38,902 nt of DNA from a bacterium (lineage in GTDB: Bacteria; Eisenbacteria; RBG-16-71-46; CAIMUX01), in contig JAUIHP010000035.1 of assembly GCA_030431975.1 (NCBI GenBank), positions 1-38,902 on the forward strand. Reading direction: 5' to 3'. Below are positions 1-38,902 of this stretch, one piece after another. Under the pieces are notes generated by a model. It worked only from the letters and a program-made list of their open reading frames with translations, made no database searches and was not told the DNA's origin. How positions within the stretch are numbered: the first letter of the stretch is position 1; each line of letters begins with the position of its first letter. A program made the translations under genes and the position numbers.

Positions 1-132
1 CGAGACGAGAGTGAGAACATCTTGGAAAGCGCGGAAGTCGACCCCGGTCGTCGCGCCGAGACGTTGGACCTTCCCGAGTTCGAACGGTTGGTCGCAGCGT
101 TTCAAGAGTTTCGTCAACGTGGAAGCCGTTAG
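1..132 (+). CDS. rsmA: Partial 3' end of 16S rRNA dimethyladenosine transferase (RsmA/KsgA-like)
   Basis: The first 44 codons of the window stay open in frame 1 and end at a TAG at 130-132. The 43 residues include the pattern ILESAEVDPGRRAETL followed by LPEFERLVAAF. This matches the conserved C-terminus of RsmA/KsgA, the methyltransferase that dimethylates two adenines near the 3' end of 16S rRNA during 30S maturation. Only the C-terminal tail is present, so no catalytic motif can be seen and the call rests on this tail. The gene converges on polB, and its stop codon lies inside the first unit of the tandem repeat at 127-238, so the repeat has supplied or replaced its natural end. Confidence 0.7.
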   Translation, partial: RDESENILESAEVDPGRRAETLDLPEFERLVAAFQEFRQRGSR

Positions 133-238
133 TCTAGAACAACGTTCCCCGCACTGCTGTGACCCGTTAGGCTAGAACAGCGTTCCCACACTCCGTGACC
201 CGTTAGTCTAGAACAACGTTCCCTGCACGCCCGTGACC
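127..238. repeat. Three imperfect tandem copies of the polB 3' tail (36-38 bp units)
   Basis: The units are 127-164, 165-200 and 201-238. Each begins CGTTAG and ends GTGACC. Read on the minus strand, the third unit encodes the last codons of polB (VTGVQGTLF and the stop). Unit 1 would encode VTAVRGTLF and a stop. Unit 2 has lost two bases but still holds GTLF plus stop in one frame. The motif TTAGTCTAGAA carries a stop codon on both strands: it ends rsmA on the plus strand (130-132) and polB on the minus strand (208-210). This looks like tandem duplication of a gene end between convergent genes. There are no spacers, so it is not a CRISPR array. Confidence 0.9.
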
Positions 239-2529
239 CGTTCCCAGTCGAGCCCAATCAGTCCAAAGACCGATTCTGCGATGGGGCGGATCTGTTTCTC
301 CACGTAATGCTCGTGGTCGAACGGATTCTTCCGCTCGTCCGCAGGTTCGGGTCCGTCGATCGTAAAGACATAGCGAATGATCCGCGGCGGTTTCCCGCTC
401 ATCTTGCGCGCGGCCTGAACGTGGGGCGGAGTCGTCGAGGTGTACTCCTCCGTCGCCTTGCGAAGCGCCTTCTTGTAGACGAGTTGCTCGTCAAACGCTC
501 CTCCGCGCAGTTGGTCGACGAAGTCGCGCGTGTAGTCCTCGACGGGCTGGTCGTGAAAAATGCGATCGATCAGTTCCTTCTGAAAGACCTTGGCCAGATC
601 GGTCCAGTCACGCCGGACGGATTCCAGCCCCACGAAGTGGAGCGTCTCTTTGCCGCCGACGTGTCGCAAACCGACGTAGCGCTTTTTGCTTCCTTCCGTC
701 GAGTGGCGAAGCGCGGGTAGAAACAGGCGCGAGAACAGATACTCGAACTCGACTTCGAGTAGGCTTTCCACGCCGTAGTCGGCCTTCAGCCTTTCGGTCA
801 GTCGCCGGTTGATCTCGTAGGCCAACTCGCGTCCGCGTTCCGCCGCCTTCTTTGCATCCGGTTCCTTGCCCAGGTCGACGAAGAGGGAATCGGTATCGCC
901 ATAGAGAACCTGGTAGCCCTCACGGTCGAGTACGCTCTGGGTCCAACGCAGGATCTTCTGCCCGAAGCCGGTGATCGCGTTCGAGGTTTCCGGTGAGTAG
1001 AAGCGACAGCGCGTTGTTCCCATGACTCCGTAGAAAGAGTTCATGAGAATCTTGAGTGCCTGCGAGGTCAGCTCATCGCCCTCGGCCTTGGCTTGCTCCC
1101 GCAACGGAAAGAAGTCGTCCAGAAGTTTCGGAAGAATGCCCCCGGTCCGTTCGAAGCGCGCGCCGTTGGGAGCGGAGATCAGGACCTCACCGTCGGTCGG
1201 CTCTTCGCCTCTGGGAATGACGCGCAACGGATCGAGTCGGAAGGTTCGAATGATCGAAGGATAGAGAGACTTGAAGTCGAGCACTCCGACCTGTTGGTAG
1301 AGCCCGGGTGTCGGATCGAAAACGAACCCGCCTTGCAGGGCGGCGCTGATCCGTCCCTGCGGTACGGTCGGTGCGACCTGCTTCCTGGCGTGAAGCGCGC
1401 TGATGTAGCTGAAGTCGAAGGTGGCGATCGATCCGCCCAGTCGGTCCAGCGGCATTCCCGTGACCTGTGACCGACGAATGCCCAACGGCATCAGTTTCTT
1501 CGCTTCCAGAATCTCGAGCACGAGCTCGCAGTCGACCAGGTTGTAGCGAACGAAGTCCTCACGGTCTTCCCGAAACATTCGAACGATCTCGCCGGCCCGG
1601 TCGACGGCGCCGACCGTCTTACCCTTGCCGAGAATCTGTCGGGCGGCGGTTTCCAGACGGTAGTCGTCCAGCTTGATGAAGCTGTCGCGAACGACGTTCA
1701 AAGTGTCGAGGACGACTCGGCCGGGGATGATGGCCCGTGAAGAGCCCCACGCGGCGCCCGTTTCCAATCGAAGGCGACAGGGGAGATTGGCCCGTCCGAT
1801 TTGAAAAGGAACGCGTGAGCGTGAGAAGACCTCTTCCAGGACACGAAGGTCGAAGTCGATGACGTTCCAGCCGGTGATGATGTCGGGATCGATGTCGCGA
1901 ATGCGGTCGACGAGTTTGTAGCAGAGGTCGGCTTCGTCCGAGCAGCCGATGACTTCGATCCCGTCGACCTCGGGGGGAGATCCGATGATGAGGACCTCGC
2001 GGACTCCCTCCGCGGCCAGACCGACGGAGAAAAGTTGCCGTCCCGTCGGATCGGTCTCGATGTCCAAAGAAAGAATGCGAATCTCCGGCACCCAGTCAGA
2101 CGGTTTCAGGTCCGGATTGACGAAGACCTTCTTCAGAAGCTTGCCCGCCTTGTGCTCGCCGGAGATCTCGACAGAGCCCCGTAGCTGATGCTGGATGAGA
2201 TAGCCGGTGGCAAAAGGAATGTCCGCTTCGAAGGTGGCGATGCCGGCGTCCTGCAGCGCGTCGCGAATGGCCGGAGTCTCCGGTGGCGTCGGCACGTAGA
2301 CGCGGCTGACCGGCTGACCGTTCGGAGTCGTCCAGTCGCTCTCGACGATCTCCAGCGTCTCGACATCCTGGGCGGCCTTGACGTCTTCCGTGCGAATGAA
2401 GAAGTGGGGGCGCCAGCGGTCGTCGCGAACGACGAAGGAGTCTCCCTCTTCGTCCTTGCCGAAAAGGTGAACGATGGCCCGGCCGCGTTCGATGTAGTAC
2501 GTCGGGTGGAGAATGAACCCGCGGGGCAT
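208..2529 (-). CDS. polB: Family B DNA polymerase II with 3'-5' exonuclease
   Basis: This 773-residue protein is a DNA polymerase II used in damage-tolerant or repair synthesis. The exonuclease domain shows ExoI DIE (D156, E158), ExoII N222 and D225 in GWNVIDFD, and ExoIII Y329 and D333. The polymerase domain shows motif A DFKSLYPSI (418-426), motif B KILMNSFYG (493-501) and motif C YGDTDS (543-548), all with their acidic residues intact. The C-terminus ends QGTLF, a beta-sliding-clamp-binding peptide of the QxxLF type. The ATG at 2529 is preceded by AAAGGA (2537-2542 on the complement) seven bases upstream. The length is close to the family norm. The gene is monocistronic here, convergent with rsmA and divergent from the glycosyltransferase. 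Confidence 0.96.
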   Translation of the reverse strand: MPRGFILHPTYYIERGRAIVHLFGKDEEGDSFVVRDDRWRPHFFIRTEDVKAAQDVETLEIVESDWTTPNGQPVSRVYVPTPPETPAIRDALQDAGIATFEADIPFATGYLIQHQLRGSVEISGEHKAGKLLKKVFVNPDLKPSDWVPEIRILSLDIETDPTGRQLFSVGLAAEGVREVLIIGSPPEVDGIEVIGCSDEADLCYKLVDRIRDIDPDIITGWNVIDFDLRVLEEVFSRSRVPFQIGRANLPCRLRLETGAAWGSSRAIIPGRVVLDTLNVVRDSFIKLDDYRLETAARQILGKGKTVGAVDRAGEIVRMFREDREDFVRYNLVDCELVLEILEAKKLMPLGIRRSQVTGMPLDRLGGSIATFDFSYISALHARKQVAPTVPQGRISAALQGGFVFDPTPGLYQQVGVLDFKSLYPSIIRTFRLDPLRVIPRGEEPTDGEVLISAPNGARFERTGGILPKLLDDFFPLREQAKAEGDELTSQALKILMNSFYGVMGTTRCRFYSPETSNAITGFGQKILRWTQSVLDREGYQVLYGDTDSLFVDLGKEPDAKKAAERGRELAYEINRRLTERLKADYGVESLLEVEFEYLFSRLFLPALRHSTEGSKKRYVGLRHVGGKETLHFVGLESVRRDWTDLAKVFQKELIDRIFHDQPVEDYTRDFVDQLRGGAFDEQLVYKKALRKATEEYTSTTPPHVQAARKMSGKPPRIIRYVFTIDGPEPADERKNPFDHEHYVEKQIRPIAESVFGLIGLDWERVTGVQGTLF

Positions 2530-11153: not shown

Positions 11154-13241
11154 ATGGGCGGAGTAGATCGCTTGCTTCCTCCGGTTCCTGAAGCCAAGAC
11201 AACCGGATATTGCCTGCCCACGTGCCCCTCTCTCGGCGCATGCGGCTTGCGCTTGGGCTCTTTCCTGCTTTTCTTCGTCCTGTTCGCAGCAGATCTTGCC
11301 TTCGGTCAGGCAACGGGTCAGGTCGAGGGGCCGCCGGACCTGGTCCCCGCCGATTCCACCCGTTATCCGACGCTCTTCGATCGGATCGGAATCCATCCCC
11401 AACTGACCGCCAAATTCCAGGTCAACCGCGGTTCGACAACCTTCCAGGAACTGCTCAAGGTCCGCAGGCACTTCGGCCGGGTCCTCGTCGATTCGGACTG
11501 GAACGTGCGGGTGCAGAGAAACGAGGAACGCAACAACCGTCGCCAGCAGTCCGGTAAGGGGGACACCCGCCTGGCCTACGCCGGCCAAAGCCTCGGGGGA
11601 TGGACCGTCGGAACCGCGTTCTCGACCGGCCGCAGCAACTCCAGCGAGACGTTCAGCCGAAAGGTCAAAAATGACTCGGCTGTTTCGCTGACGAGTTCGT
11701 GGAGCGGCCTCCGCCTGGTGGCTCCCGATCTGGGTGTCGACGACAGCTTCTACTGGGACGTCACCGCGGATCTCAGTGCGACCGAGGAAACGTCGATCAA
11801 CGAACGCTTCAGCCGGACGTCCACCGGCATCAGCGACGCGGACTCCACGTCGTCCGACGGAGGTGTCCTTGATTTCGGCACTGCGCTGGGATTCGTGCCG
11901 GCGACGGATTGGAAATTCACGGCGGAAGCCGGATGGAGCCGGGGAACCGATGACTTCTCGACCCGGCTGGAGGAAGCCTCCGGGGATTCGTCACTGGTCA
12001 GCTTCCTCGATGGGACGAACCGGGACCGGGCACGCGATCTTCGGATCGCATCGGGCTGGCGTCGCGACCAGAATCGGTTCTTCGAAATCGGAGCCTACTG
12101 GGCACGCAGCGTCACCCAGGACTTCTCGTCCGCCGAGGAACAACAGGACACTCGAACCGCGGTGGAACGTTCCTTCTCCCTCGATACCAAAGGGGAGCCG
12201 TACTTCGGTATCGGTCTCGACTTCTCTGCCAATCTGCGACGAATCGGATCGACGTTCGACCTTTCCGACAACGGCTCGGGAAGTGACGGGTGGGACACAC
12301 GACTCATCGCGTCTTACGTCCTGGGTCCGGCGTGGAGCATGCTCGACGGTGTCGAACTCGAGTTTGACGGCGGACTCGAAGAGAGGGACTACACGGCCGA
12401 CTCCGTGAACAGTCCGGACTACACCCAGGAAACGATTTCCATCAAAGGCACCGTGCGGAAGTCCTGGCGCCGAAACGTCTCTCTGTCCATGAGCGCGAGC
12501 GGGGAGCTGGAGCAGAGCTTTTACGAGGATGACAAGGACCGGGACGAGGTCGAAAACCGCGTCGAAGCGCTCTTCACGTATGCGCTGGGGGAACGATTCT
12601 CGAACACGGACGAGTTCGTGCCGACGCTTCACTTCAACTACCGGCGCAACCAGACCATCGCCATCGCCGCCGCTCGGGCCAACGGAAACACGGATCAAAC
12701 CTCGATCACGGCGGGCGGGCGCTATACCTGGACTTTCAACCCGCGTCTCGAACTGTCCCAGGACATCACAGTCACCGCCAACTCGAGTACGCTTCCCTTC
12801 GACGAGGACCGAAGCAAGCTCACCCGAACCAGCCAGCTTCGATCGACGCTCAATGCCCGCCTGGGAGAGCGCATTCTCATGTCCTTCGACCACGACTTCA
12901 GGGCTCGGGACTCCGGCGCTTTCCGCATCGATCCGGAAGACGGCATCCGCAAGTACATTCAGGACACCAAAGGTATCCAACAGGTCTTGAACAACGAGAT
13001 CCGGCTGGCCGTTCATGCCAGCGTCGATCTCTTCTACAACCAGCGTTACCAGTTCGACACGAACAAGAACCTCGTGTCCGGGGCCGTGAATCGGGACCCG
13101 CGCACGGAGATCACGTGGGGTGGAGTATTCCGTCACTACTTCAGTGCGGACTCTTCGCTCAACGTCGATCTGAAACGTCTTTCCTCGACCCGTGAGGAAA
13201 GCGACTGGAGAGGGCAGGCTTCTGTTTCACGTATCTTCTAG
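11154..13241 (+). CDS. Predicted outer-membrane beta-barrel protein, unknown function
   Basis: The 695-residue protein has a hydrophobic export signal at about residues 32-51 ending LAFGQA. Many alternating polar/hydrophobic strands then run to the C-terminus, which ends RIF; a terminal aromatic is typical of barrels recognised by the BAM complex. It has Ser/Thr/Asp/Arg-rich strands and no cysteine after the leader. I do not recognise a named family. The start is uncertain. The ATG at 11154 has no ribosome-binding site and gives a 31-residue N-terminal extension before the signal. A TTG at 11247 would give a compact signal beginning RLGSFLLFFVLF. It heads a cluster with two lipoproteins, which may be periplasm-facing partners. 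Confidence 0.75.
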   Translation: MGGVDRLLPPVPEAKTTGYCLPTCPSLGACGLRLGSFLLFFVLFAADLAFGQATGQVEGPPDLVPADSTRYPTLFDRIGIHPQLTAKFQVNRGSTTFQELLKVRRHFGRVLVDSDWNVRVQRNEERNNRRQQSGKGDTRLAYAGQSLGGWTVGTAFSTGRSNSSETFSRKVKNDSAVSLTSSWSGLRLVAPDLGVDDSFYWDVTADLSATEETSINERFSRTSTGISDADSTSSDGGVLDFGTALGFVPATDWKFTAEAGWSRGTDDFSTRLEEASGDSSLVSFLDGTNRDRARDLRIASGWRRDQNRFFEIGAYWARSVTQDFSSAEEQQDTRTAVERSFSLDTKGEPYFGIGLDFSANLRRIGSTFDLSDNGSGSDGWDTRLIASYVLGPAWSMLDGVELEFDGGLEERDYTADSVNSPDYTQETISIKGTVRKSWRRNVSLSMSASGELEQSFYEDDKDRDEVENRVEALFTYALGERFSNTDEFVPTLHFNYRRNQTIAIAAARANGNTDQTSITAGGRYTWTFNPRLELSQDITVTANSSTLPFDEDRSKLTRTSQLRSTLNARLGERILMSFDHDFRARDSGAFRIDPEDGIRKYIQDTKGIQQVLNNEIRLAVHASVDLFYNQRYQFDTNKNLVSGAVNRDPRTEITWGGVFRHYFSADSSLNVDLKRLSSTREESDWRGQASVSRIF

Positions 13242-17396: not shown

Positions 17397-17403
17397 CCCC
17401 GGT

Positions 17404-17492
17404 CCCGGATCCCGATCCCGGATCCTGATCCCGATCCCGATCCCGATCCCGATCCCGATCCCGATCCCGATCCCGATCCCGATCCCGATCCC
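17404..17492. repeat. GATCCC hexanucleotide tandem repeat
   Basis: Starting eight bases after the secF stop there are degenerate hexamers (17404-17426), then 11 perfect GATCCC copies (17427-17492). The run contains a GATC site every six bases. It lies outside any supported gene. Downstream to 17603 I see only an inverted CCGCGG pair near 17519-17537 and nothing coding. Confidence 0.95.
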
Positions 17493-30688: not shown

Positions 30689-30827
30689 TTCGGCGCTCCG
30701 CTGCGGCATCCGCTGCCGAACTCAATTCGGCTCCGATGCGGCATTGGCCGCCGAACTCAATTCGGCTCCGCTGCGGCATCCGCCGTCAAACTCGAGTTCG
30801 GCTCCGATGCGGCGGCCGCCGCTACGA
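30689..30827. repeat. Four direct repeats of 35-37 bp forming serial hairpins
   Basis: Units are 30689-30725, 30726-30760, 30761-30795 and 30796-30827 (partial), each starting with TTCGGCtCCG and containing TGCGGCAT. At the unit junctions GCCGAA pairs with TTCGGC across a five-base loop (30715-30731, 30750-30766, weaker at 30784-30802). The array therefore makes consecutive hairpins. It lies in the 428-base gap between glnA and the HEAT gene. No open frame with normal codon use covers it. Confidence 0.85.
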
Positions 30828-38573: not shown

Positions 38574-38888
38574 CCCCTCTACGACCCAACTTGCGGTCCT
38601 CCGAGGAGTCGCCTTTGGGCACCCCGTCCGGGGAGGCGGCCCGGTGCGGGTCGAACGAACCAATGAGCCCCACGCCACCCCAACCCCACTCGTCACCCAA
38701 ATCCCCCCCCGCGGTCGAACGTGAAGTGAGCCCCTCTATGACCCAACCTGCGGTCCTCCGAGGAATCGCCTTTGGTCACCCCGTCGGGGGAGGCGGCCCG
38801 GTGCGGGTCGAACGAAACTATGAGACCCGCGCCACCCCCACCCCACTCGTCACCAAATCCCCCCCGCGGTCGAATGTGAAGTGAGCCC
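38574..38888. repeat. Two tandem copies of a 157-bp unit, possibly continuing past the window
   Basis: The segment 38574-38730 recurs at 38731-38888 with few substitutions. Both copies hold GCGGTCCTCCGAGGA, GGCGGCCCGGTGCGGGTCGA and a closing GTGAAGTGAGCCCC. Partial similarity just before 38574 and after 38888 suggests more copies. The period of 157 is not a multiple of three and the copies differ by small indels, so it is not coding. Each copy contains small palindromes such as TCCTCCGAGGA. Confidence 0.88.
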
Positions 38889-38902
38889 CACCGGACCGCC
38901 TC

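Follow-up and report, generated by a model that had tools for sequence, protein, structure and literature searches.

Bacterial minisatellites, or VNTR loci, are tandem repeats of ~20 nt or more that are used in strain typing. The array described here, which lies where polB and rsmA converge in a bacterial genome, resembles them in its head-to-tail units of 36–38 nt, largely intergenic, imperfect and consistent with slippage, and differs from them in that its unit happens to include the final codons of a gene and, on each of the two strands, a stop codon. A published definition of minisatellites requires at least 90% identity among copies (PMC2884548), a level not reached by the array, whose copies are 83–93% alike; because the array fits just the looser definition used by TRF, we call it a degenerate tandem array. 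It also resembles tandem duplications made by slippage in that the repeated block is bounded by a short direct repeat (AACGG), although the event is read here from one genome. Literature searches brought up no work dealing directly with slippage-made tandem duplications of gene ends in bacteria.

The gene tail itself has a well-described counterpart in Escherichia coli DNA polymerase II, whose beta-clamp-binding peptide is QLGLF; across structures of clamp-bound peptides, it is the Gln of the motif that is highly conserved (PMC3716654). The translated copy at our locus likewise ends with QGTLF at the extreme C-terminus. It differs from the E. coli peptide at position 2, where Leu is replaced by Gly, a residue also found in same-family relatives (QGTLF, QGSLF), and in being followed by extra copies that are untranslated and have no Gln.

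Results

The window, that is, the whole 38,902-nt stretch of DNA analysed, starts at the edge of contig C46 in an assembly of 6.19 Mb and 59 contigs. The features at the polB–rsmA junction are as follows.

1..132, + strand: 3' end of rsmA, last 43 codons followed by TAG at 130–132, the remainder lying beyond the contig edge (sequence, BLASTP)
126..242, no strand: tandem array, 3.1 copies of a 38-nt unit (direct-repeat search and TRF)
126..130, - strand: AACGG, distal member of the direct repeat; on the other strand CCGTT runs into the rsmA stop
131..168, - strand: copy 3, rsmA-proximal, untranslated, 38 nt, AACGGGTCACAGCAGTGCGGGGAACGTTGTTCTAGACT; would read RVTAVRGTLF-stop
169..204, - strand: copy 2, middle, untranslated, 36 nt, AACGGGTCACGGAGTGTGGGAACGCTGTTCTAGCCT; Gln codon lost
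205..242, - strand: copy 1, polB-proximal, translated, 38 nt, AACGGGTCACGGGCGTGCAGGGAACGTTGTTCTAGACT; encodes RVTGVQGTLF-stop (from sequence)
238..242, - strand: AACGG, the proximal partner in the direct repeat; copy 1 begins with these 5 nt
208..2529, - strand: polB, DNA polymerase II (family B), 773 aa, ending with DWERVTGVQGTLF (ORF, Pfam, NCBIfam)

TRF detected an array with a period of 38 and 3.1 copies at positions 126–242, with a score of 167. When the whole window was shuffled 200 times by a first-order (dinucleotide-based) procedure, the top score was 71, and the array is far above chance. A direct-repeat search placed the copies at 121–149, 159–187 and 195–223, with a spacing of 38 and 36 nt and 83–93% identity to the reference copy over 29 nt; within the TRF array, matches amount to 83%. 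An earlier note on this DNA had reported a tandem triplication at 127–238, and this is what we find to within a few bases: three tandem copies of the polB 3' end, of 38, 36 and 38 nt, within 126–242.

The polB product matches the NCBIfam model NF004421 for DNA polymerase II (775 bits for a cutoff of 570) over its full length, contains the Pfam domains PF00136 and PF03104, and carries QxxLF at its C-terminus. The gene ends with QGTLF-TAG inside copy 1, the right-hand copy, which thus encodes the true C-terminus of PolB and, with it, a predicted clamp-binding end of the QxxLF type. Copy 3 has four substitutions relative to copy 1 that would alter two residues, Gly to Ala and Gln to Arg, so that it would read VRGTLF with the clamp-binding Gln gone. 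Copy 2 has lost 2 nt relative to copies 1 and 3 and is frame-shifted. On the polB strand, copy 3 is followed by AACGGCTTCC. The stretches GGGAACG, TGTTCTAG and CTAACGGGTCAC are identical across all copies, and the differences are mildly clustered in ~9 nt of the unit between nearly identical flanking stretches; this clustering comes from few differences and could be explained by chance, shared constraint being a conceivable source of the near-identical flanks. Copies 2 and 3 have decayed in the way expected of untranslated sequence, with the conserved motif kept in copy 1. The statement that each unit carries a GTLF end and a stop needs one correction: all three copies offer both in one frame or another, whereas the translated copy alone has the clamp-binding Gln.

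On the opposite strand, the frame 1–132 ends with GSR-TAG and aligns with the C-terminal end of RsmA from the nearest relative, G002 (17 of 34 residues identical, E 6e-9, BLASTP). The 43-residue piece, too short for such models, gave no Pfam or NCBIfam match. Since the G002 protein stops almost where this one does (FARLTAAWGARFGSPE and FERLVAAFQEFRQRGSR for G002 and the window, respectively), the RsmA end is intact here. The rsmA stop TAG lies at the outer edge of copy 3. That a single motif supplies stops to both rsmA and polB, as the earlier note had it, therefore stands, with the two stops sitting in different copies. As a search with the Pfam RrnaAD model found no convincing rsmA elsewhere in the assembly (two weak partial matches), the 5' part of the gene is probably located in an assembly gap.

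A single polB tail was found in all relatives examined, the nearest of which is just 67% identical in PolB; no other genome of the genus was found among the relatives searched. In this nearest relative, G002, rsmA is also downstream of polB and convergent with it, at a distance of 1.5 kb, and the gap holds, among other sequence, an apparent transposase remnant as well as a CDGSH-like gene, both named by reading the sequence alone. The PolB proteins of two same-family relatives end with DWDKVTGMQGTLF and DWEGVTGGQGSLF, without a repeat, which identifies copy 1 as the ancestral tail; the residues common to both are kept in copy 1 and not in copies 2 and 3. An array of this kind over the stop is absent from ~80 polB loci of other genomes and occurs only in the window, so that a conserved feature of polB tails can be rejected. 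Unrelated short repeats do lie near or after the polB stop in a few of these loci (L056, 18 nt x 3.3; L065, 22 nt x 2). Furthermore, the unit is found nowhere else in the genome with up to 3 mismatches and is therefore not a dispersed intergenic element of the REP/PU type.

Tandem arrays are common in this genome. In a 613-kb sample (stretches L123–L152), 85 arrays score at least 50, and 19 combine a period of 30 nt or more with a score of 100 or more, that is, ~31 per Mb. Loci of other genomes, 807 kb in total, contain ~6 per Mb of the same class; they form a comparison set that is taxonomically mixed and of varied G+C, which makes the about fivefold difference indicative only. With genes called by a simple codon-usage script, six arrays overlap gene stops where 4.1 are expected (P 0.2), a chance rate that does not support a preference of arrays for gene ends. 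The duplication of a gene tail, previously described as unusual, is indeed so at this locus, since it is missing from every other polB tail examined, but not for the genome, where arrays abound and overlap stops at about the chance rate. Further small arrays spanning the stop between predicted convergent genes are found at L125 10168–10206 (20 nt x 2) and L149 9104–9130 (12 nt x 2.2), so the polB array is not the sole case of its kind.

Discussion

These observations lead us to regard the array very probably as a neutral, minisatellite-like repeat made by replication slippage. The repeated block begins with AACGG and is bordered beyond its far end by AACGG, and such borders fit the footprint expected from slippage between short direct repeats, though this is one case, short at 5 nt, with a probability of ~0.006 for a border match of at least 5 nt by chance. 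The ancestor, as we infer it, would have had polB and rsmA tail to tail with a single copy that carried both protein ends, the stop codons being one base apart. A slip between the AACGG inside polB, in the E-R codons of DWERV, and the AACGG at the rsmA stop would have duplicated the 38-nt block lying between them, and a third copy could have followed from a second slip or an unequal exchange. In such an order of events polB would still read copy 1 and rsmA would keep its old TAG, and the two extra copies would have become untranslated spacer, presumably decaying since without effect on fitness. The duplication alters neither protein, since the end of the block coincides with the end of both reading frames. 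Slippage at convergent genes, one of the origins put forward earlier, is thus the best supported, by the AACGG borders, the divergence of the copies and the many similar arrays of the genome.

The position of the array, 125 bases from the end of C46, together with the missing 5' part of rsmA, raises the question of whether the assembler multiplied one genuine copy close to the edge of the contig. The copies, however, are set apart by several substitutions and an indel of 2 nt, which duplicated read paths would not create, and the assembly contains the first 128 bases just once; an assembler-made expansion is consequently very unlikely. Contig-end overlap as a sign of variant arrays was likewise discarded, window positions 1–128 matching no other contig. 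The copies could, on the other hand, be real and serve a purpose, for instance as a terminator acting in both directions, as a series of protein-binding sites or as some other functional spacer separating the convergent genes. Their location between two convergent stops and the stretches identical in all of them would suit such a role. Against it, RNA folding of the array is no better than that of shuffles on both strands (z -0.28 and 0.59), no terminator-like site (a stable G+C-rich hairpin followed by a T-run) lies inside it and an Rfam search of it gave no match, on which grounds we reject a terminator or a structured RNA; copies are also lacking in the rest of the genome and in the relatives. 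A functional element of any sort is therefore improbable here, and nothing suggests that the array has any function.

The earlier note had also imagined a store of alternative tails, in which contraction or recombination among the copies would swap the C-terminus of PolB and tune its binding to the clamp. In its favour, each copy offers a GTLF-stop in one frame or another, and the array could mechanically contract from one copy to the next. However, the extra copies lie downstream of the stop and have lost the Gln or the frame, and when crossovers between identical 8-mers of the array were enumerated (31 sites with at least 8 identical bases), 23 restored the same QGTLF tail, three gave VRGTLF, with loss of the Gln that is highly conserved in clamp-bound peptides (PMC3716654), and five gave a frame-shifted tail without the motif. 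Readthrough of the first polB stop would append TNGSRSVGTLF up to the next stop, again without Gln. As contractions either restore or damage the tail, this proposal is not supported, and we consider a reservoir of tails to be hardly credible. The same can be said of a contingency locus in which slippage among the copies would switch polB between clamp-binding and clamp-defective ends; such switching, by which PolB in a fraction of the cells would compete differently at the replication fork, appears extremely improbable.

Slippage and neutral decay thus remain our preferred reading, and we regard the array as a genuine, ordinary degenerate tandem repeat, most likely made by slippage, that happens to contain a gene tail. 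Its importance beyond this locus is little. It nevertheless offers a clear example of a duplication that, by ending at two convergent stop codons, changes neither protein, which allows the additional copies to persist as spacer and to bear witness to an earlier slip, and it calls for caution in inferring function from repeated gene tails where the genome is rich in tandem repeats.

Further arrays are present in the window itself. Two 157-nt tandem copies, 91% alike, lie at 38574–38889, just before the contig end; contig C49 has related sequence at its end (99% over 135 nt) and C42 in its interior (85%), which indicates that this repeat is dispersed and that the assembly seems to break there. 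An intergenic array with a 35-nt unit in 3.6 copies is located at 30695–30822, downstream of a gene named glutamine-synthetase-like by reading its sequence alone, and its unit has one partial match elsewhere in the window, at 12347–12374. Finally, 15.5 copies of the hexamer CCCGAT occupy positions 17398–17492, directly after the stop of a predicted gene (17396).
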